The notes under the pieces were generated by a model. That model saw nothing but the letters and a program-made list of their open reading frames with translations, searched no databases and was not told the DNA's origin. Shown here in pieces: positions 3,493-53,839 of a DNA stretch of 64,000 bases. The stretch is from Hwanghaeella grinnelliae (GTDB lineage Bacteria > Pseudomonadota > Alphaproteobacteria > UBA8366 > Aestuariispiraceae). Positions within the stretch are counted from its first letter, which is position 1. Each line of letters starts with the position of its first letter. Location of the stretch: NCBI RefSeq assembly GCF_004005845.1, contig NZ_SADE01000001.1:992001-1056000 (forward strand), in the 5' to 3' direction. Both the position numbers and the translations under genes were made by a program.

Positions 3493-5391
3493 ATGTCGGG
3501 AAATCGCGAAAAGGCCAAAGACCTTTTGGCGACCGCGCTTGCTTCCCTGGAAGCGAGCAAAGCGGAAGATGCGGTGGATGCCACCGGGGAGGCGATCAAG
3601 CTCGCGCCCGGATACGCCGCGGCGATCCATGTTCTGGGATTGACCGCGCTGCAAATGGACTCGGCGCTGCGGGCGGAGGAACTGTTCCGCATCGCCCATG
3701 ATACAGCGCCCGATATTCGCGAACATTGTGAGGCCCTGGCGATCGTCAGCGCTAAATTGGGCCGGCTCAATGATGCGCTGTTCTATGGAAAATTGTCGCC
3801 TTCCTTGCCGCATAGCGCCGATTTTCCAGGGCTGCTGCCGGCCTGGCTCGGGACTTATGAAGATGCCATGCGGTCGATGGACCGAAGCGACAGGGTCGAT
3901 GCCGGGTTGAGCCTGATGCGTGAGGGCCGCTATATCGAAGCGGTGGAAGACCTGCGCGTCGGGGTCGAGACGAAGACCACCGACGATAGAGGGTGGCGCG
4001 CCCTTCGTGATTGCCTTGTCATGATGGATCAGCCCTATGAGGCGTTGCTGGCCGGCCAGGCCCTGGCGTCGATCCGGAAATCCAGTTTCGAGGACATGTC
4101 GGCCGTCGCGGAAATTCTGACCCATATCGGCCGGTTCGACGAGGCCCAGTCCTGCCATATCAAGGCGGTTCAGGAATTGCCGCATTCCGCCGCGGTGCGG
4201 TCCGCTCTGATACGGGATCTTCATGTTCTGCCCGATATCGACCCGGAAGATATCCGGAAGTCAGAGCGGCTATGGGAAATCAGTTTCAAACCGGACTCCG
4301 AACATCTGTTGCCAAGGGAAAAGCCACTTGAAGACGGTGTCCTGCGGGTTGGGATACTCAGTGGCCGTATGCGCGGCTTGCAGGGGATGGAGGCAATTTG
4401 GCCTGCCTTCGCGGCGCATGGCAGGGCCGATGTCAAAGCCCATGTCTATAGCAACAACATCACCGACGATGCTCTGACGCGTAAAATTCGCGGCGAAGTC
4501 GCCGGTTGGACCGATATCAATCGTGTCGACGATGCAACCGCTGCCCGAATCATTCGGAACGACCGGATAGATGTCCTGATCGATTTGGATGGTCATGGCG
4601 CGACCGGGCGCATGGGGATTGCGGGCGCGCGGCCGGCGCCGCTTGTTCTTTCCTGGTTTGGGCTTGTCGACCCCGATGCGGTCATTCACGACGGGACGAT
4701 CAATGGCGAGGGCATTCTTCTGAAGACAGGCGCGCGGGTGGCCTGCAGTCCCTTCTGTTTCCCGTCGGACGTGGTCTTGCCGCCGGTATCTGCAGGGTTG
4801 CCCTGGATGCCGATCCGCGCTGGAATTTCCTGCCCGCCGCGGAAGCTCACCGACGAATTCATTGCCGTGCTGGTCCGGCTCTGCGCCGCGAATCCGACCT
4901 TGCGGATCGTGCTGAACCCCGTCGCCGTCGGCGGCGGACCCGGCTTGGATGCAATTGAACCAAAATTGGACAAGGCTGGCATCCTCGACCGGCTGGACTA
5001 TAGCGAGCCGACGGAAAACTCCGCCAAAACCATCGATAATTTTACGGCCAATGTGGACTTCGTGCTCGACCCGGGGCCCGACGGCGACCTGCAACTTGCC
5101 TGGGAGACACTGACCGCATCCTGTCCGATACTCATTCGCGCGGATGGCCATCCGAGCAATCATGCGGCCTCGGCGCTGCTTCGCCAAACGGGCCTTGCTG
5201 AGATGGCAGTGGCCGATTTCGAGGCGATGCTTGCCCGTGCCTCGGACTGGATTTCCAGTGCCGAAAAAATGAATACAGTGAAAGAGGAAATGAACCGAAA
5301 AATCGGTGACGCCTTTTTGCTGTCCAAATCCAATGAGGCGTCGATGGGCTTCGTCGATGCATTGAGGAAAGCTGCCGCGACACGTGTGTAA
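3493..5391 (+). CDS. TPR protein with O-GlcNAc-transferase-like C-terminal region (putative flagellin glycosyltransferase)
   Basis: The protein is 632 residues from ATG 3493. Residues about 1-250 are helical repeats of TPR type (for example AIKLAPGYAAAIHVLGLTAL and AEELFRIAHDTAPD). From about residue 275 the sequence resembles the catalytic half of GT41 / SPINDLY proteins: LRVGILSGRMRGL, then IDVLIDLDGHGATGRMGIAG, ARPAPLVLSWFG, and a late LVLDPGPDGDLQLAWETL-like segment. The longer frame from GTG 3439 was rejected because it overlaps a hairpin, whereas 3493 has GGAAGGG at a good distance. Its place between flagellin and Maf genes suggests it glycosylates flagellin in the cytoplasm. The sugar donor is unknown. 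The GT41 similarity is weak in the conserved His/Lys region, so activity is uncertain. Confidence 0.7.
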   Translation: MSGNREKAKDLLATALASLEASKAEDAVDATGEAIKLAPGYAAAIHVLGLTALQMDSALRAEELFRIAHDTAPDIREHCEALAIVSAKLGRLNDALFYGKLSPSLPHSADFPGLLPAWLGTYEDAMRSMDRSDRVDAGLSLMREGRYIEAVEDLRVGVETKTTDDRGWRALRDCLVMMDQPYEALLAGQALASIRKSSFEDMSAVAEILTHIGRFDEAQSCHIKAVQELPHSAAVRSALIRDLHVLPDIDPEDIRKSERLWEISFKPDSEHLLPREKPLEDGVLRVGILSGRMRGLQGMEAIWPAFAAHGRADVKAHVYSNNITDDALTRKIRGEVAGWTDINRVDDATAARIIRNDRIDVLIDLDGHGATGRMGIAGARPAPLVLSWFGLVDPDAVIHDGTINGEGILLKTGARVACSPFCFPSDVVLPPVSAGLPWMPIRAGISCPPRKLTDEFIAVLVRLCAANPTLRIVLNPVAVGGGPGLDAIEPKLDKAGILDRLDYSEPTENSAKTIDNFTANVDFVLDPGPDGDLQLAWETLTASCPILIRADGHPSNHAASALLRQTGLAEMAVADFEAMLARASDWISSAEKMNTVKEEMNRKIGDAFLLSKSNEASMGFVDALRKAAATRV

Positions 5392-28203: not shown

Positions 28204-28434
28204 TCGGCTCCCCACCTAAACGAAAATGATGCACCAGAATCATAAAGGCGCGATGTGCGAAAGCGTTGCGCCTGTGGTCGCACATCACGTTGTTGCTATA
28301 GAATTGCAGTCTCAGTGCCGGGTGAAAAGACCCAAATGACGGCATTTTTCGATTAACGGCGATGCACCACAATTTTACCGCATCCGCGGTATGCGAAATG
28401 CGCGTTTGAACTGCGTTTTGTGTGGATAAAGTGG

Positions 28435-28755
28435 GGGGTTCTGTTGCTAGGTCCCCCATACCCCACCTAGACGGCGATGAACCGCCTAGGAATTCCGAAG
28501 TGTCGCTTTGACCGCGTTACGCGGCGACGGCAACCATCTCTTCGTTATCATTGGCATTTATAGCCGTGGCCCGATAACGGCGGATACCATACCGAACGCA
28601 GAAAGCATCTTTACTACACGCGTCGATCCTATTTCGCCCCCATCATCAGAACCGACCCTAAAACACTGAGTTATCAGGATAAATCGGTTCTCATGGTGGA
28701 GGCGCCGGGTACCGCCCCCGGGTCCGCTGCGCTTATTCCATGCCACCCTTTAGCG
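28435..28755 (-). ncRNA. ssrA: Two-piece (circularly permuted) tmRNA
   Basis: Read on the minus strand, the acceptor piece comes first (about 28750 to the CCA at 28694). It has a T-arm-like hairpin (CCGGG, 7-base loop, CCCGG) and the 3' acceptor strand CGCCTCC-ACCA. A 52-base intervening segment closed by AGAACCGA/TCGGTTCT follows. The coding piece then starts at 28641 with GGGGGCGAAATAGGATCGAC. GGGGGCG pairs with CGCCUCC, leaving a G-U at the third pair, the alanine identity element. The tag frame (28555-28517) encodes ANDNEEMVAVAA plus stop TAA, so the full tag is (A)ANDNEEMVAVAA. The outer ends (about 28755 and 28435) are estimates; a CTAGGCGG/CCGTCTAG hairpin lies after the tag. It rescues stalled ribosomes. 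Confidence 0.93.
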
Positions 28756-28782
28756 TCATAACCGGCCGAAGCCGGCACGCGT

Positions 28783-28813
28783 AATATAGGGATTGGAAAG
28801 CGGTTCTGAAAGG
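28783..28813 (-). promoter_or_regulatory. Probable ssrA promoter
   Basis: On the minus strand TATATT (28788-28783) is a good -10 element, with a poor -35 (TTTCAG) 17 bases upstream. A hairpin CCGGC-TTCG-GCCGG (28775-28762) lies just downstream, at the start of the precursor. Confidence 0.45.
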
Positions 28814-28930
28814 GGGAAGAAGAAAGGGCTTCGTAGAATTGCAGATGCGTGCCGATTATATCGTAGAAGAGGTTTTGCGGTTACTGTCGGCTGCTTAAAA
28901 GATAGAGACGAGGGAGTCGGACCGGTATCC

Positions 28931-47728: not shown

Positions 47729-48055
47729 TCAGCTCTCGGTGGGATGTCCCTGCGCCTTCCAGTCCAGGATACCGCCTTCCATGTGGAAGACTTCCTTATA
47801 GTCGTTCAATTCGAAAAACCGGAAATAGTCATAGGTGCGGCGGCCGCTGCGGCAATGGAATATGCCGATCTTATCGGGGGAGCCTTGCGGACGGCGCTGG
47901 CCGAAATTGGACAGGGGGTAAAGATCCGCGCCAGGAATGCGCTCGACCTGCCATTCGTTTTCTTCGCGCACGTCGATCAGTTCCGCCTCACCCGATTCGA
48001 TAAGTTTGGCGCACTCATCCGCGGTCAAACCACGAACACCGCTGGAATCACTCAC
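47729..48055 (-). CDS. Single-domain rhodanese-like sulfurtransferase
   Basis: The protein is 108 residues from GTG 48055, which has GGGAG upstream; a TTG at 48070 is possible. The fold shows ELIDVREENEWQVERIPGAD, the active loop FHCRSGRRT with the catalytic Cys, and VFHMEGGILDWKAQGHP at the end. It carries sulfur as a persulfide. It is 51 bases downstream of metZ and ends the sulfur operon. Confidence 0.9.
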   Translation of the reverse strand: MSDSSGVRGLTADECAKLIESGEAELIDVREENEWQVERIPGADLYPLSNFGQRRPQGSPDKIGIFHCRSGRRTYDYFRFFELNDYKEVFHMEGGILDWKAQGHPTES

Positions 48056-48106
48056 TTGGCCGTCTCCCAATCAATCATTACCCGTCACCCTTAACGCGCG
48101 ATCACG

Positions 48107-49339
48107 TCAATTCAGGGCGTCGTTCAGATCCTTGGCCAAATCGTCATAATGCTCAAGCCCAACCGACAGGCGGATCATGCCTTCGGAAATGCCGACGCGG
48201 GCGCGTTCCTCTGGCGTCAGGCGCGAATGGGTGGTCGAGGCCGGATGGGTCACCAGACTTTTGGCGTCGCCGAGGTTGTTGGAAATACGGATCAGCCGAA
48301 GCTTGTTCAGGACCCGGAAGGCAGCTGCCCGTCCGCCGTCGATCTCGAAGGTGACGACCGTGCCGCCCTGGCGCATCTGCGTGACGGCCAGGTTGTGTTG
48401 CGGGTGCGACTTCAGGAACGGGTAGGAGACGGTCCGCACGCGGGTATCGGCTTCCAGCCACCCGGCCAGCGCCAACGCCGACTGGCATTGCCGGTCGACC
48501 CGCAGGTTCAGCGTTTCCAAGCCTTTCAGCAGCACCCAGGCATTGAAGGGGCTCATGCTGGGGCCGGTATGGCGGATGAAAGGCATCAGGTCTTCGGTGC
48601 AGTATTTTTTCGTGCCCAGGATCGCACCGCCCAGGCAGCGCCCCTGACCGTCGATATGCTTGGTCGCTGAATAGACGACGACATCCGCGCCAAGGTCGAT
48701 CGGTTTCTGTAGCAGCGGTGTCGCGAACACGTTGTCGATAACCAGTTTTGCGCCGGCGGATTTTGCCAAGGCCGCTACGAATTCAAGGTCGATCAATTCC
48801 AGGCCCGGATTGGTCGGGGTTTCAAGGAATACGACATCGGTGGATTTTGAAAGCGCCTCGCGCCATTGATCCGGGTCGGTTCCGTCGACGAATTCCGTCT
48901 CAACACCGTAGCGCGGCAGGATATCGTTGCAGATGAAGAAACAGGATCCGAACAGCGCGCGGCTCGCCACCAGTCGGTCGCCCGCCTTCAGCAAGGAAAT
49001 CAAGGCCGTGAAAACGGCGGACATCCCGCTTGCTGTCGCGAAACATTGTTCCGCGCCTTCAATCTGCGCCAGGCGTTCCTGGAACATGTCGACGGTGGGA
49101 TTGCCATAGCGGCTATAGATATAGCGATCGAGATCGCCCTTGAAGGCGGCTTCCGCCTCTTCCGCCTTCCCATAGACATAGCCGGAGGTCAGGTAGACCG
49201 CTTCCGCGGTTTCCTCAAACCCGCTGCGCCGGATGCCGCCATGCACGCCGACCGTATCGGGATGCCATTGCGCGGCTTTCGTTTCCGGCAGCGCCGGGTC
49301 GCCTGTTTGCGATGTCGTATCGATGTCCTTCATGGTCAT
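48107..49339 (-). CDS. metZ: O-succinylhomoserine sulfhydrylase
   Basis: The protein is 410 residues. It is a Cys/Met-metabolism PLP enzyme with the Schiff-base lysine K227 (VYSATKHIDGQG). Other marks are YSRYGNPTVDMFQERLAQIE, FLETPTNPGLELIDL and a C-terminal SNNLGDAKSLVTHPASTTHS. It makes homocysteine directly from O-succinylhomoserine and sulfide. Its ATG overlaps the upstream stop by one base (TAATG). Placement downstream of sulfite reductase links sulfide production to its use. Confidence 0.93.
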   Translation of the reverse strand: MTMKDIDTTSQTGDPALPETKAAQWHPDTVGVHGGIRRSGFEETAEAVYLTSGYVYGKAEEAEAAFKGDLDRYIYSRYGNPTVDMFQERLAQIEGAEQCFATASGMSAVFTALISLLKAGDRLVASRALFGSCFFICNDILPRYGVETEFVDGTDPDQWREALSKSTDVVFLETPTNPGLELIDLEFVAALAKSAGAKLVIDNVFATPLLQKPIDLGADVVVYSATKHIDGQGRCLGGAILGTKKYCTEDLMPFIRHTGPSMSPFNAWVLLKGLETLNLRVDRQCQSALALAGWLEADTRVRTVSYPFLKSHPQHNLAVTQMRQGGTVVTFEIDGGRAAAFRVLNKLRLIRISNNLGDAKSLVTHPASTTHSRLTPEERARVGISEGMIRLSVGLEHYDDLAKDLNDALN

Positions 49340-49860
49340 TACGACGCCAAACGTTCGGAGCCGGCCGCACCGCGGCGGCGCAGGTTGATGATGGTCGTCC
49401 GTCCATCGCGCGCCGGCTGGTAGAACAGGTCGATCCCGGCCAGCCTGCCTTCCCGCAAGCGGCGGATCGTGGGCTCATTGGTTACGTGAAAGGCGTCGAT
49501 GCCGCAGCGCTGCATGAAGTGAATTTGATCCAGCAGCACGTCGCCGGTGGCGCGGATTTCGCCCTTGAAGCCATGCCGTTCGCGCAGGGCGCGCGCGGTC
49601 GAGAAAGCCCGGCCGTCTGCGAAGTTTGGGAAGTGGACCTGCACAAGCGCCAGATGCGGCAAGTCTTCGACAATTTCGTCCGCGAGTTCACCGGCGGCCA
49701 GCGCGACCCCGGCCTGGGCCGGACGACTGATCAACTCATGACGAACCTCACGCCATCGGGATAGCGGCACGATGACATGGGATGCATCGGGCAGGGCGGC
49801 GCCGTCTTCGGCCGGGACCCATTCGTCGGCGATCTCTTTTCCATATTTGAACAAAGGCAT
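49339..49860 (-). CDS. DUF934 protein of the sulfite-reduction operon
   Basis: The protein is 173 residues from ATG 49860. DUF934 is recognised by HVIVPLSRWREVRHELISRP, DLPHLALVQVHFPNFADGRA, FSTARALRERHGFKGEIRAT and QIHFMQRCGIDAFHV. The family nearly always sits beside assimilatory sulfite or nitrite/sulfite reductase genes and probably supports that step. The biochemical role is not known to me. It is translationally coupled to metZ. Confidence 0.88.
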   Translation of the reverse strand: MPLFKYGKEIADEWVPAEDGAALPDASHVIVPLSRWREVRHELISRPAQAGVALAAGELADEIVEDLPHLALVQVHFPNFADGRAFSTARALRERHGFKGEIRATGDVLLDQIHFMQRCGIDAFHVTNEPTIRRLREGRLAGIDLFYQPARDGRTTIINLRRRGAAGSERLAS

Positions 49861-49887
49861 CGATTGATCCTCCAACAATAGGGTGCG

Positions 49888-50115
49888 CTAAAACGCGCCG
49901 TGAATGTCGCCCGGCGCGACGGCGGGCAGGGCGGGTGTCACGCCGATCGCAAACGCGTGGTTTGCATCCGGGTGCTTGCCGTCCGGCAGGGTGACGGTGT
50001 CCACCGGTTTCCGAAGTCCGATACCGACGCCCCATTTGGCTTCGGTCCGGTTCGCGGCGTGGTACTTGTGGGACGCGTTCCAATCGATAAGCGGTTTCCA
50101 GAAACTCATGATCAT
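49888..50115 (-). CDS. Small protein encoded between sulfite reductase and DUF934
   Basis: The protein is 75 residues. Its ATG overlaps the sulfite reductase stop (ATGA), a strong sign of a real coupled gene. The sequence is soluble, with WKPLIDWNASHKYHAANRTE and DTVTLPDGKHPDANHAFAIG. I recognise no family. In this operon position a PAPS reductase is often found, but this is far too short. Confidence 0.6.
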   Translation of the reverse strand: MIMSFWKPLIDWNASHKYHAANRTEAKWGVGIGLRKPVDTVTLPDGKHPDANHAFAIGVTPALPAVAPGDIHGAF

Positions 50116-51770
50116 GCCCTCCCGTATAGCCGTTCCTTGAACGGCGTTTCGCCGACGCGGCGGTATGCATCGATGAAGCTTTCATCCGGCGATGTGCGGA
50201 TATCGATATAGGTGTCGACCACATTCTCCACGGCGTCGGTTATCTCGTCGCTGGAGAAACCCTGGCCGATGATCTTGCCGATTGAGGTGTTTTCATCGGC
50301 ACTGCCGCCGAGCGTGATTTGGTAGAACTCCTCGTTCTTCCGATCGACGCCCAGAATCCCGATATGGCCGACATGATGGTGCCCGCATGCATTGATGCAG
50401 CCGGAAATCTTCAGCTTCAACGGACCGATTTCCTTTTGACGGTCTGGATCGGCGAAGCGCTTGCTGATGTTCTGAGCCACCGGGATCGACCGCGCATTCG
50501 CAAGGGCGCAATAGTCCAGACCGGGGCAGGCGATGATGTCGGTCACGAAACCGACATTCGATGTCGCCAGGTCCACGTCGCGCAATCCGTTCCAAACCGC
50601 GAACAGATCGTCGAGCGCGACATGCGGAAGAACAAGGTTCTGTTCGTGGGAAACACGAACCTCATCATAGCTGTAACGTTCGGTCAGATCCGCGACCGCG
50701 TCCATCTGTTCCGCGCTTGCATCGCCGGGCGCCTCGCCGATCCCTTTCAGTGAGATCGTGACGATGCCGTAGCCGGCCTGCTTGTGCGGGGCGACGTTGC
50801 GATCGACCCAATCGGCAAAGTCGGGGTTGGCGTCCTTGTCCGCCTGCAATTTGGCGGATGTAATCGGACGGGTTTCGAAACGCGGCGGTTCGAAATAGGC
50901 CGCGATCCGATCCACTTCCTCCTGCGGCAGGGTGAAGACCGTATCCTTGATCTCTTCCCACTCCGCTTCGATTGCGTCGGTCAATTCCTGGGTGCCGGTT
51001 TCGTGCACGAGGATCTTGATCCGTGCCTTGTACTTGTTGTCGCGCCGGCCGAATTGGTTGTAGACGCGCAGGATCGCTTCCAGATAGCTCAGCAGGTGTT
51101 CCTTGGGCAGGAAATCGCGGACCTTCTTCGCGATCATCGGCGTGCGGCCCTGGCCACCGCCGACATAGACGGCAAAGCCGGTTTCGCCCGCATAATTGCG
51201 AACCAGCGCCAAGCCGATGTCATGGACCTGGATGGCCGCGCGGTCCTCTTTCGTGCCGATGACGGCGATTTTGAACTTGCGCGGCAGGAAGGCGAATTCC
51301 GGGTGCAGGGTCGACCATTGCCGGATGATTTCGCACCAAACCCGCGGGTCCTCGATTTCGTCTGCCGCGGCGCCTGCGAAATGATCCGCGGTGGTGTTTC
51401 GAATGCAATTCCCACTGGTTTGGATCGCATGCATTTCGACTTCGGCCAGTTCTTCCAGAATGGCGGGCGTGTCGACCAGGGTCGGCCAGTTGTACTGGAT
51501 GTTCTGGCGGGTGGTGAAATGGCCATAGCCCTTGTCGTATTTGCGCGCGATATGCGCCAGTTTGCGCATTTGCTTGGACGACAAGGTGCCGTAGGGGACG
51601 GCCACGCGCAGCATGTAGGCATGCAGTTGCAGGTACAGGCCGTTCTGCAGGCGCAGAGGTTTGAATTCATCTTCGGTCAAGTCGCCGGACAGGCGCCGTT
51701 CCACTTGGTCCTTGAATTGCGCGACGCGCTGGCGAACAAAGTCATGGTCGAATTCATCGTAACGATACAT
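50112..51770 (-). CDS. cysI: Sulfite (nitrite/sulfite) reductase hemoprotein
   Basis: The protein is 552 residues. The siroheme and [4Fe-4S] ligands are C-x5-C (CPGLDYC) and C-x3-C (CINAC, in LKISGCINACGHHHVGHIGI). The ferrite reductase repeats are GYGHFTTRQNIQYNWP and DEVRVSHEQNLVLPH. It reduces sulfite to sulfide for cysteine and methionine synthesis. cysG, two genes upstream, makes its siroheme. It sits 38 bases after the DUF2849 gene. Confidence 0.92.
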   Translation of the reverse strand: MYRYDEFDHDFVRQRVAQFKDQVERRLSGDLTEDEFKPLRLQNGLYLQLHAYMLRVAVPYGTLSSKQMRKLAHIARKYDKGYGHFTTRQNIQYNWPTLVDTPAILEELAEVEMHAIQTSGNCIRNTTADHFAGAAADEIEDPRVWCEIIRQWSTLHPEFAFLPRKFKIAVIGTKEDRAAIQVHDIGLALVRNYAGETGFAVYVGGGQGRTPMIAKKVRDFLPKEHLLSYLEAILRVYNQFGRRDNKYKARIKILVHETGTQELTDAIEAEWEEIKDTVFTLPQEEVDRIAAYFEPPRFETRPITSAKLQADKDANPDFADWVDRNVAPHKQAGYGIVTISLKGIGEAPGDASAEQMDAVADLTERYSYDEVRVSHEQNLVLPHVALDDLFAVWNGLRDVDLATSNVGFVTDIIACPGLDYCALANARSIPVAQNISKRFADPDRQKEIGPLKLKISGCINACGHHHVGHIGILGVDRKNEEFYQITLGGSADENTSIGKIIGQGFSSDEITDAVENVVDTYIDIRTSPDESFIDAYRRVGETPFKERLYGRA

Positions 51771-51808: not shown

Positions 51809-52126
51809 TTACGCGTAGATTTCGGCTTGTTTGCCAAGGTCGCGGCGGACCGTCGGCCCGCGTGAGCGGATCGCTTCCTTGTTCTTGACCGCGGTCAATT
51901 TTCCGTCCCGGTGTTCAACCTCGGCGATTTCCCAATGGGTGATCAGTTGTCCCGCCAAGCCCGCATTGGCCTTTGCTTCCAATGGCTGCCGTTCGTCGGG
52001 GCTGTTTGCGACGGCGGCTTCCTCGACCTTTTCGGTCCACCCCCCGACAGGGTTGAGGTAGACGACGGCACCATCGGTCAGCCGGTTGCCCGTAATCGCT
52101 TCGGCGTAAATCTGCTTTTTGGCCAT
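51809..52126 (-). CDS. DUF2849 protein
   Basis: The protein is 105 residues from ATG 52126. DUF2849 is seen in MAKKQIYAEAITGNRLTDGA, VVYLNPVGGWTEKVEEAAVA and ITHWEIAEVEHRDGKLTAVK. This small alphaproteobacterial family lies between siroheme synthase and sulfite reductase genes and is presumed to assist sulfite reduction. Spacing to cysG is 32 bases. Confidence 0.88.
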   Translation of the reverse strand: MAKKQIYAEAITGNRLTDGAVVYLNPVGGWTEKVEEAAVANSPDERQPLEAKANAGLAGQLITHWEIAEVEHRDGKLTAVKNKEAIRSRGPTVRRDLGKQAEIYA

Positions 52127-52158
52127 GACTGTCTTCTCCACAATGCGGGGCGGCGTCG

Positions 52159-53583
52159 TCACGCGACGGCCCGGTCCTTTGTCGCTGTTTGCGCGAAGGT
52201 CTCCGCGCCGGTCAGGTCTGCTTCGGCCACCACGTCGCCGATCACGATCAAGGCGGGACCGGTTAGATCCGAAATAGCTGCAATGCCCGGCAAGTCGCAT
52301 AACGGTCCGGTCAAAATTCGTTGATTGGATAAAGTCGCGTTCTCAATGACGGCCACCGGTGTATCCGGGCGTCGGCCAAGCTTGATCAAAGCGGTGGTGA
52401 TTTCCGCCGCCTTCGTCTTGCCCATGTAGATCACGGCGGTTTGGTTCGGGTCGGCCAGGGCGGCGAAGTCGGGCTCGTCCTTGCCGGCCGCGGGATGGGC
52501 TGTTGCGAAGCTGACCACATTCGCCAGGTCGCGTTGGGTCAACGGCAGGCGCAGCGCAGCCGCCGCGCCGGTCGCCGCAGTGATGCCCGGGATGACATCG
52601 ACATCGATTTCGGCGTTGCGCAGGGCGGCGACTTCTTCCCCACCGCGTCCGAAGACGAATGGGTCGCCACCTTTAAGCCGTACGACAGATGAACCGCGAC
52701 GGGCTTCGTCGATGAGGATTCCGTTTATGCGGTCCTGGCTGTAGCTATGGCGACCCTTCGCCTTCCCGACAAAGAGCCGGAAAGCATCGCGACGCGCGAG
52801 GTCCAGGATCTCGGGCCCGACCAGGGCATCATAGACAATGATATCGGCTTGCTGAAGCGCCCGCAGCGCGCGGAGCGTGAGCAGATCGGCCGCACCGGGG
52901 CCGGCGCCGACCAAGGTGACGCGACCCTTCGGCTTTTCGTCCCGGGCCAGGGCGCCGAGAAGTTCATCCGCCGCCTGCCGTCCGGCATCGGGCCGGTTTT
53001 CAAGCACGCCTTCCGCGCCGTATCCATCCAGGAAGAGTTCCCAGAACGCTCGCCTTTTCCGTCCGTCGTTCAGCCGTTCGGCCACCGTGCTGCGCAGCGA
53101 GGCCGCGAATTCAGCGAGTTTGCCTAGATTTGGGGAAAGAGATGCTTCTATCCGTTCACGGATCCGTCGCGCCAGGACAGGGGAGGTGCCGGCGCTTGAA
53201 ATGGCGACAAGGATGGGCGAACGATCGACGATCGACGGAACGATGAAACTCGACAGGTCCGGCCGGTCGACGACGTTCACTTTTACGCCATGGGCCTGGG
53301 CGATAGCGGCGCAATATGAATCGACGTCATTGTCGCCTGTCGCTGCGATCACGATGGCCGCCCCAGCGATGTCGTCTTCACCGACGGGCCGGCGCGACAA
53401 AATTATCCGGTCTTCCTCGGCAAATGCCTGGATTTCTTCGCCCGCCGTGGGGGCGACGACATGAACGCGGGCGCGCGCGGCGACAAGCAGGCGGACCTTG
53501 CGGGCAGCATTTTCGCCGCCGCCTACGACCAGCGCCGTGCCGGAGTCGGTGTCCCAGAAAATCGGAAAATAGGATTGAGTCAT
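52159..53583 (-). CDS. cysG: Siroheme synthase (trifunctional CysG)
   Basis: The protein is 474 residues from ATG 53583, preceded by GGAGG at 5 bases; a longer frame to 53703 runs through a leader element and is rejected. The N-terminal Met8-like dehydrogenase/ferrochelatase has ALVVGGGENAARKVRLLVAA. The C-terminal uroporphyrinogen-III methyltransferase has GRVTLVGAGPGAADLLTLRA and VRLKGGDPFVFGRGGEE. It makes siroheme using two SAM molecules. It is the first gene of the operon and appears to be controlled by SAM-responsive leader elements. Confidence 0.95.
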   Translation of the reverse strand: MTQSYFPIFWDTDSGTALVVGGGENAARKVRLLVAARARVHVVAPTAGEEIQAFAEEDRIILSRRPVGEDDIAGAAIVIAATGDNDVDSYCAAIAQAHGVKVNVVDRPDLSSFIVPSIVDRSPILVAISSAGTSPVLARRIRERIEASLSPNLGKLAEFAASLRSTVAERLNDGRKRRAFWELFLDGYGAEGVLENRPDAGRQAADELLGALARDEKPKGRVTLVGAGPGAADLLTLRALRALQQADIIVYDALVGPEILDLARRDAFRLFVGKAKGRHSYSQDRINGILIDEARRGSSVVRLKGGDPFVFGRGGEEVAALRNAEIDVDVIPGITAATGAAAALRLPLTQRDLANVVSFATAHPAAGKDEPDFAALADPNQTAVIYMGKTKAAEITTALIKLGRRPDTPVAVIENATLSNQRILTGPLCDLPGIAAISDLTGPALIVIGDVVAEADLTGAETFAQTATKDRAVA

Positions 53584-53587
53584 GCGC

Positions 53588-53632
53588 ACCTCCGTCGAGC
53601 CAAAACACGGGCCCACGGAGGTAACTCCGTGG
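53588..53632 (-). promoter_or_regulatory. cysG: Alternative pairing switch at the cysG ribosome-binding site
   Basis: On the minus strand the order is CCACGGAG (53632-53625), ACCTCCGT (53622-53615) and the Shine-Dalgarno ACGGAGGT (53595-53588). The middle element can pair with the first (perfect 8-bp hairpin, CCACGGAG-TTAC-CTCCGTGG) or fully with the Shine-Dalgarno. Exclusive pairing would switch translation. The first arm abuts the aptamer-like element. Confidence 0.6.
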
Positions 53633-53680
53633 CGCTTTAGCAGTGGTAACGCGGATGCAAGCTGCCCATCAAATCCCGCG
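53633..53680 (-). promoter_or_regulatory. SAM-II-like riboswitch, promoter-distal copy
   Basis: On the minus strand a P1 stem CGCGGG/TCCGCG encloses ATTTGAT and CTTGCA, followed by TTACCACTG and CTAAAGCG. GATTTG, CTTGCA and GCTAAA in this order, with a GCAG/CTGC pseudoknot option, match the SAM-II (metA) aptamer as I know it. The pseudoknot is short. An aptamer in front of a SAM-consuming, sulfur-assimilation operon with metZ is functionally sensible. Confidence 0.6.
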
Positions 53681-53711
53681 GGTCCGTAACTGTGGTGGAC
53701 CAATCCGGCAT

Positions 53712-53744
53712 AAAAAAACCTGTCACAGCTACAAGCTGGACAGG
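53712..53744 (-). terminator. Intrinsic terminator inside the cysG leader
   Basis: On the minus strand CCTGTC-CAGCT, loop TGT, AGCTG-T-GACAGG form 11 bp with one bulge, then seven Ts. It lies about 130 bases upstream of cysG and between the two aptamer-like elements, so it can attenuate the operon. It is not the end of hutG, which is upstream of the promoter. Confidence 0.8.
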
Positions 53745-53750
53745 GTCCTC

Positions 53751-53801
53751 CGCTTTAGCTGCATTTATAAAGCGCCCGCAAGTTGGCTTTAACTCGGCGC
53801 T
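53751..53801 (-). promoter_or_regulatory. SAM-II-like element, promoter-proximal copy
   Basis: On the minus strand P1 AGCGCC/GGCGCT encloses GAGTTAAAG and CTTGCG, then TTATAAATGCAG and the same CTAAAGCG ending as the second copy. The pseudoknot is not obvious, so the class assignment is weaker. It begins at the predicted transcription start and is followed 6 bases later by the terminator. Confidence 0.4.
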
Positions 53802-53810
53802 GTGAGAGGA

Positions 53811-53839
53811 GAAATAACGCCTCTCCCATTACGTGTCAA
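53811..53839 (-). promoter_or_regulatory. Sigma-70-type promoter of the cysG-metZ operon
   Basis: On the minus strand a perfect -35 TTGACA (53839-53834), a 17-base spacer and -10 TATTTC (53816-53811). Transcription should start near 53804, immediately before the first aptamer-like element. Confidence 0.6.

Follow-up and report, generated by a model that had tools for sequence, protein, structure and literature searches.

Two SAM-II-like elements, one carrying an inserted hairpin, in the leader of a siroheme/sulfite/methionine operon of Hwanghaeella grinnelliae

The cysG operon of Hwanghaeella grinnelliae is preceded by a leader that we read as a two-stage regulator sensing one metabolite, most likely SAM, twice, with a second (proximal) aptamer that is a SAM-II variant containing an inserted hairpin; we give this reading a probability of about 0.7. 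The leader lies in the window, that is, the whole stretch of 64,000 nucleotides that was analyzed (G000:C1:992001-1056000, from a genome of 5.3 Mb). The sequence confirms a tandem SAM-II-like leader on the minus strand upstream of cysG. Within 260 bases it runs from a promoter through one SAM-II-like element, a terminator, and another SAM-II-like element to the start of cysG. One 5′ UTR holds a first aptamer with a terminator and a second with apparent control of the ribosome-binding site (RBS). This anatomy is conserved, and its antiterminator, the pseudoknot helix P2a, and two mutually exclusive pairings around the Shine-Dalgarno (SD) sequence, A:B and B:C, covary. SAM would be the ligand, acting on termination and then on translation. 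All features of the leader and operon described below are on the minus strand.

The operon has the order cysG-DUF2849-cysI-DUF934-metZ. Siroheme synthase, cysG (52159–53583, ATG at 53583), was assigned with NF007922 (573.5 bits, cut-off 400) and Pfam, and is followed by a DUF2849 protein (51809–52171; PF11011), a cysI-type sulfite/nitrite reductase (50112–51770; PF01077 and PF03460), a DUF934 protein (49339–49878; PF06073), and metZ, encoding O-succinylhomoserine sulfhydrylase (48107–49339; NF005870, 640.6 bits, cut-off 618). A gene for a rhodanese-domain protein (47729–48070; PF00581) lies behind metZ and is possibly the last gene of the operon. A preliminary description of this DNA had named a sulfur/methionine target, which the NF and Pfam models for cysG, the cysI-type gene, and metZ support.

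The promoter given there, TTGACA-17-TATTTC, is present (53811–53839, with TTGACA at 53839–53834 and TATTTC at 53816–53811), and its spacing to P1 of the first (distal) element is kept: 43 of 45 collected distal elements have TTGAC 34–43 nt ahead of P1, against 1.8% for mononucleotide shuffles. A simple promoter/terminator scan picked up neither the promoter nor the terminator of the leader, the former because TATTTC breaks the T-at-position-6 rule of the scan, and the latter because the rule as printed (loop 3–8) names no bulge, which the hairpin has.

Searching the leader alone with RF00521 (SAM_alpha) gave 27.2 bits (E = 2.2e-4) for the proximal stretch 53617–53689 and 26.7 bits (E = 3.2e-4) for the distal stretch 53737–53810. 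Neither element reaches the gathering score of 36, which is why a default Rfam scan is silent on both, and they are filed here as SAM-II-like only, not as members of RF00521. The covariance-model check proposed with the preliminary description gave matches below the cut-off for both of its aptamer-like elements, the one starting at 53801 and the second, which we extend to 53680–53609. Over the whole window, the default scan reported tmRNA only (two overlapping families); the locus, at 28426–28815, is an alphaproteobacterial two-piece (permuted) tmRNA with the tag ANDNEEMVAVAA.

The distal SAM-II-like aptamer (53751–53801) comprises P1 (AGCGCC, 53801–53796, paired with GGCGCU, 53776–53771) and the core ACUUGC / GCUAAAGC. 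Behind it stands an intrinsic terminator (53712–53744; CCUGUC-CAGC..GCUG-U-GACAGG + T7), consisting of a hairpin at 53744–53719 and seven T at 53718–53712. The strand UGCAGCUA inside the distal aptamer (53756–53763) can form eight pairs, wobbles included, with UAGCUGUG of the terminator (53731–53724). In a swap test with 45 distal elements, own partners scored 14.96 and swapped partners 12.39 (sd 0.33), a value that 0 of 5000 swaps reached, and when each distinct aptamer segment was represented by a single leader (n = 11) the count was 1 of 5000. The partners change together, as in GCAGC/GCUGC, AACGGC/GCCGUU, CCAGCU/AGCUGG, and GCGGC/GCCGC. Because the antiterminator covaries, SAM should promote termination at the distal element, which would follow the usual SAM-II OFF logic. 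Without SAM, UGCAGCUA would pair with UAGCUGUG and transcription would read through; with SAM, the pseudoknot would retain the same strand, allowing the terminator to form. P1 and the letters of P2b are present in the distal core; its third strand (53791–53795) reads GAGUU and departs from the GAUUU of the remaining 60 among 61 cores that a regular expression counted on L001–L034 and L065–L084, loci brought in through Rfam matches. As this strand is nearly invariant, the SAM sensitivity of the distal copy is uncertain, and in the window it may bind SAM poorly.

The proximal element, a hairpin-inserted SAM-II variant (53609–53680), is directly preceded by a hairpin termed P0 (GGUCC..GGACC, 53681–53701), in which, among six aligned elements, GGUCC is invariant and the partner is GGACC or GGGCC. 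The element itself contains P1 (53680–53676 / 53654–53650), GAUUUGA (53675–53669), the L1 segment GGGC (53667–53664), CUUGC (53661–53657), and GCUAAAG (53641–53635), so the GAUUU / CUUGC / GCUAAAG core with its P1 and P2b pseudoknot is present by sequence. GAUUUGA, CUUGC, and GCUAAAG are unchanged in the window and 32 aligned rows, although most of these rows were found with patterns requiring the core, and invariant core pairs yield no covariation evidence. Right behind the core follows the inserted hairpin A:B, CCACGGAG-UUAC-CUCCGUGG (53613–53632), with segment A, CCACGGAG, at 53632–53625 and segment B, ACCTCCGT, at 53622–53615. Beyond it lies the P2a 3′ strand GCCC (53612–53609), complementary to L1 GGGC. 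No clear pseudoknot had been seen in this element before; judged by its letters, the predicted pseudoknot is present, with the P2b core intact and a covarying P2a (GGGC:GCCC) that would close across hairpin A:B.

Other assignments were considered for this element. A canonical P2a, between L1 GGC and the GCC that starts segment A, can be drawn by eye in the cysG type; we found no specific pairing there, in a test that is weak, and the reading is broken in the metY type and in some other elements. SAM-V, whose model the preliminary description had proposed to search with, was dropped, as the leader gave no RF01826 match at E values up to 10, and the SAM-II long loops model (RF01726) stayed at 16.1 bits (E = 1.5), its cut-off being 44.

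Six proximal elements, five before cysG-type genes and one before metY, have long invariant stretches in common. A pattern built from their L1 and core matched at least 118 stretches in the genome collection, including some from Nisaea, Thalassobaculum, Ancylobacter, Kiloniellales, and Rhodospirillaceae. Taking the first six elements and those among the matches listed, 63 of 81 distinct elements have a hairpin of at least five pairs right behind GCUAAAGCG, mostly CCACGG..CCGUGG, and GCCC comes next after the hairpin in 50 of these 63. L1 and the post-hairpin strand change together (GGGGC/GCCCC, CGGAA/UUCCG, CGGAG/CUCCG, GAGGAUC/GAUCCUC, GAGGG/CCCUC, and CCCGG/UCGGG in Ancylobacter); GAGGAUC/GAUCCUC and GAGGG/CCCUC belong to metY-type leaders, which were first found by Rfam and not by the L1/core pattern.

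The first swap test, covering the 12–60 nt after the core in 135 proximal-type elements, gave 13.84 for own and 12.58 for swapped partners, with 13.12 as the highest of 2000 swaps. At the adjacent canonical site the same elements had no excess (8.51 versus 8.56 swapped). For canonical P2a this L1 swap test is weak, because distal elements show little there too: among 43 of them the adjacent site scored 8.38 own versus 8.13 swapped (sd 0.27) and the far site 9.81 versus 9.97. The adjacent site of the variant scored 6.57 own and 6.75 swapped, a value that 4927 of 5000 swaps reached, again in a test of low power with the distal elements likewise flat. All swap tests carry the shared ancestry of the sequences within them.

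The two helices were then considered jointly in an alignment of 32 sequences (the window plus 31 of the 79 hairpin-selected elements described below, one per distinct type, with hairpins above 24 nt excluded). P2a and A:B together had 90.4% of their cells paired, and 7 of 11 pairs had changed on both sides (matched in 2 of 500 shuffles), among them 4 of the 6 pairs of A:B; 0 of 500 shuffles reached the covariation score, and 29 of 500 reached the number of further pair types. When the partner was shifted by 1–3 columns, pairing fell to 28–58%. For P2a by itself, 79.0% of cells were paired, two of its five pairs being often open (15/29 and 11/32 cells). In an all-against-all comparison of 15 segments in 68 leaders, the top pairs were A–B (z = 9.1), loop+B–SD (7.3), and L1–P2a strand (6.1), followed by the P0 stem (5.0), A–loopB (4.5), and six more pairs at 2.6–3.2. 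The 68 leaders were drawn from 79 elements, each kept only with a following hairpin of at least five pairs, so A:B is favored by selection, its 100% pairing included; P2a is favored too, since most of the 79 elements came from a pattern that fixes part of L1.

The preliminary description had also proposed an SD switch with two exclusive pairings, and here the comparative data bear it out. In the window, the exclusive anti-SD pairing (53588–53622) joins ACCUCCGU at 53622–53615 to the SD, ACGGAGGU, at 53595–53588; segment C, ACGGAGGT (53595–53588), holds the SD. For the 68 leaders, loop+B (the last 14 nt of the hairpin) tested against the 20 nt before the start gave 14.57 versus 12.69 swapped (0/5000), and against the 23 nt after the start codon there was no excess (10.93 versus 10.66, 535/5000). 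The A side also pairs with the SD region above expectation (11.36 versus 10.29, 0/5000, n = 68), an excess smaller than that of loop+B and unexplained. For this test, 11 of the 79 leaders were dropped as their predicted start was less than 40 or more than 75 nt away; some first-pass start codons, being the GUG of CCGUGG, fell within the hairpin. In homologous leaders A:B, P2a, loop+B:SD, and the antiterminator all covary; neither this conservation check nor the covariance-model check refuted the preliminary description.

The two states of this platform have similar predicted energies. In the window leader, A:B amounts to -20.9 and B:C to -23.5 kcal/mol; over the 68 leaders the median difference is -1.4 kcal/mol, 46 lie within 5 kcal/mol, B:C is the more stable pairing in 32, and A:B is at least as stable in 36. 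This near balance suggests a bistable platform, and the energies, calculated for the segment from A to the start, do not decide the direction in which the SD is switched.

Tandem and variant elements recur well beyond the window. RF00521 run over the whole genome located a second tandem 0.7 Mb away, before metY. SAM_alpha matches at E up to 0.01 occur in 61 of 114 genomes, that of the window among them, and in 11 of the 114 two matches start less than 250 bases apart. Four further genomes have the cysG-type tandem: it precedes cysG in G001, which belongs to the same genus, and in G113, where the second element was recognized by sequence, and it precedes the methyltransferase homologue of cysG in G021 and G030. 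Hairpin-inserted copies mostly escape the standard model, with 3 of 20 copies at 19 loci (L086, L115, and L118) passing the RF00521 gathering score and 17 below it; a fourth SAM_alpha match among these loci, in L130, is a distal element. Model R1 scores the proximal element of the window, one of its training members, at 86.7 bits. A covariance model with P1 and A:B and without the P2a pairing, in which the letters of the P2a columns stay, found matches with E no higher than 1e-6 in 73 of 385 alphaproteobacterial genomes, a figure somewhat high because the weakest matches include canonical SAM-II (L307 and L312). Among good-quality genomes the count is 65 of 315, and the best match has an E of 1e-9 or better in 61 of the 73 positive genomes.

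Parsing 62 of the model matches gave 56 distinct elements, 14 of them already in earlier sets and 42 new. The P2a signal replicated in the new elements, where L1 against the 13–50 nt after the core scored 12.24 own and 11.21 swapped (1/5000), or 7/5000 with one element per distinct L1 (n = 25). No excess was seen for L1 against the 51–88 nt after the core (10.56 versus 10.73) or at the adjacent site (7.62 versus 7.83, reached by 4583/5000, in a low-power test). The 23 model matches without a GGGC L1 also had an excess (11.65 versus 10.23, 0/5000), several of them combining little L1 pairing with a kept hairpin. A regular-expression parse of the model matches yielded only 7 new elements, two of which are canonical SAM-II; their adjacent site scored 9.71 versus 7.15 (3/5000), and their far site was not outstanding (278/5000). 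As a separate observation, L277, L280, L288, L290, L291, L293, and L297 keep a CCACGA/UCGUGG-type hairpin while L1 has diverged and little complementarity is found behind it; in several of this set, L277–L297, the post-hairpin strand looks SD-complementary by eye.

The genes behind the variant are cysG, cysI-like, cysH, metY, and metZ genes, with metN, metQ, and metA as best matches below curated cut-offs. By regular expression, 48 of 127 elements are tandem and 79 have no second SAM-II core 60–330 nt upstream, a count that overlooks the window's own distal element and wrongly places the window among the 79. Some loci have further features. L134 holds two hairpin-inserted elements 1.2 kb apart (3848–3892 and 5087–5131), one before cysH and the other ahead of an ORF clustering with cysG. 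Five congeneric genomes (L067, L070, L071, L072, and L073) have a metY-type leader with a longer insert, whose loop has a CUUUCAUUCGG or CUUCCAUUCGG motif in common with sequence lying upstream of P1; L071 differs in that another ORF stands first. L069 (G007:C7:19899) and L080 (G113:C616:3264) are single canonical-looking SAM-II elements with terminators, followed by what appear by eye to be sulfonate-type ABC transporter genes. At 15 loci (L110, L116, L118, L123, L126, L135, L152, L159, L161, L163, L167, L170, L177, L191, and L208), the variant is followed by a short peptide whose coding sequence has many consecutive Cys codons (examples are MTATRKTRLCCCR, MTMCCRRPKRA, and MTKMCCPCCV); it begins at the first start codon with an SD, 43–62 nt behind the core, and the next predicted ORF lies about 100–220 nt further on. 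This combination seems to be a SAM sensor gating an attenuator that reads cysteine codons; for Rhodobacterales, leader peptides with Cys codons have been described before cysS (PMC8632094).

How the second stage would respond to SAM is the point at which the alternatives diverge. P2a would close across A:B, and A:B together with P2a would leave the SD free, whereas pairing of loop and B with C would hide it. Because the genes serve sulfite reduction and methionine synthesis, high SAM is expected to hide the SD. The enclosure of A:B by P2a implies, on the contrary, that SAM would favor the SD-free state, and an OFF model would have to break A:B through the canonical P2a site, where the variant has no specific pairing in a low-power test. 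For the second stage we lean towards the OFF direction, weighing gene logic above anatomy. The earlier claim of successive control by one metabolite stands as to the succession of terminator and SD platform, given the anatomy and covariation; that both switches respond in the same direction is only plausible from the genes, and the proximal anatomy does not settle it.

If the proximal element were instead a SAM ON switch, binding would lock P2b, P2a, and the enclosed A:B and withdraw the anti-SD, and with the terminator the result would be a band-pass leader that is translated at intermediate SAM and at no other level. Since P2a lies on both sides of A:B and covaries across it, the bound fold should include A:B; something must open the SD, as the platform on its own favors the hairpin that hides it (P 0.99 for pairing of the SD with the hairpin); and in the metY leaders of the window's genome and of G001, the P2a strand CCCUC matches both L1 GAGGG and SD GAGGG. 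Yet the variant without a second element, on the regular-expression count, stands before metZ, cysG, cysH, metN-like, and metA-like genes, which SAM should switch off, and the A:B stabilities given above need no such help in 36 of the 68 leaders. We therefore regard an ON switch as quite unlikely, and place slightly less belief still in the wider proposition that hairpin-inserted SAM-II is a translational ON switch capturing the anti-SD, forming a band-pass leader behind a SAM terminator, and constitutes a widespread subclass (73/385 at E ≤ 1e-6 and 61 at E ≤ 1e-9), most of which escapes the standard model. A decaying distal element, with regulation by the proximal element alone, would explain why GAGUU is unique among 61 cores, but the promoter, P1, the P2b letters, the antiterminator, and the terminator are all intact, and the pocket change may be tolerated; decay is unlikely, though we keep it in view. 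Hardly credible to us is a proximal element that serves as a constitutive scaffold or detects a different signal, leaving only the distal terminator to answer SAM. A tandem aptamer need not respond, as the Pelagibacter SAM-II/SAM-V linker silences the SAM-II half in vitro (PMC11508383), but the constancy of the proximal core (most finding patterns required it), the covarying switch pairings kept in 68 leaders, and the 79 of 127 elements classed as lacking an upstream second core (the window wrongly so) argue against it.

These data add a structural SAM-II variant in which a hairpin doubling as the expression platform interrupts the pseudoknot helix. Between about a sixth and a fifth of the sampled alphaproteobacterial genomes carry it. 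The gene contexts suggest direct SAM control of siroheme synthesis and of sulfite/PAPS reduction, and an anti-SD inside an aptamer raises the question of whether the start site is opened or closed by SAM.

Among the open literature searched, we found no hairpin inserted between P2b and P2a and no SAM-II before cysG/cysI. The SAM-II structure and its P2a are described in PMC6061858, PMC3764141, and PMC2258182, and SAM-II precedes metA and metZ of Sinorhizobium (PMC9373788). In a regulon study of about 200 proteobacterial genomes (PMC4239095), SAM_alpha was restricted to Rhizobiales and Rhodobacterales, where it is associated with metY and further methionine genes; the words "cysI" and "sulfite" are absent from its main text, and the passages compared here do not name the cysG/cysI/cysH targets. 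The present leader resembles SAM-II (RF00521) in P1, the third strand GAUUU (proximal), CUUGC, GCUAAAG, and P2b, as well as in its alphaproteobacterial host, methionine genes, and terminator platform in the distal element; unlike it, the proximal element has its P2a 3′ strand not adjacent to P2b and placed after a conserved hairpin with an anti-SD. SAM-II long loops (RF01726), likewise a SAM-II variant, is listed for Bacteroidetes and marine sequences (PMC2864571), and differs by the low score given above. In SAM-V, P2a includes part of the SD itself (PMC6061858), whereas here segment B and the region beyond act as the anti-SD. The SAM-II/SAM-V tandems known from SAR11 (PMC11508383) likewise place control of transcription before control of translation by one metabolite, with a second element that, unlike ours, is SAM-V. 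Tandem SAM-II is not as rare, or as confined to SAR11-type leaders, as the preliminary description implied: Sherlock et al. 2022 (PMC9481103) reported 44 examples, some with a terminator first and apparent RBS control second. Our leader shares with those a first aptamer before a terminator and a second that apparently governs RBS access, and differs in its inserted hairpin, displaced P2a, and sulfite-reduction operon, which its section on tandem SAM-II and the other passages compared do not describe. Tandem SAM-II with mixed platforms has been published before, and the present tandem is a further member of that known kind; its proximal aptamer adds a new SAM-II variant.
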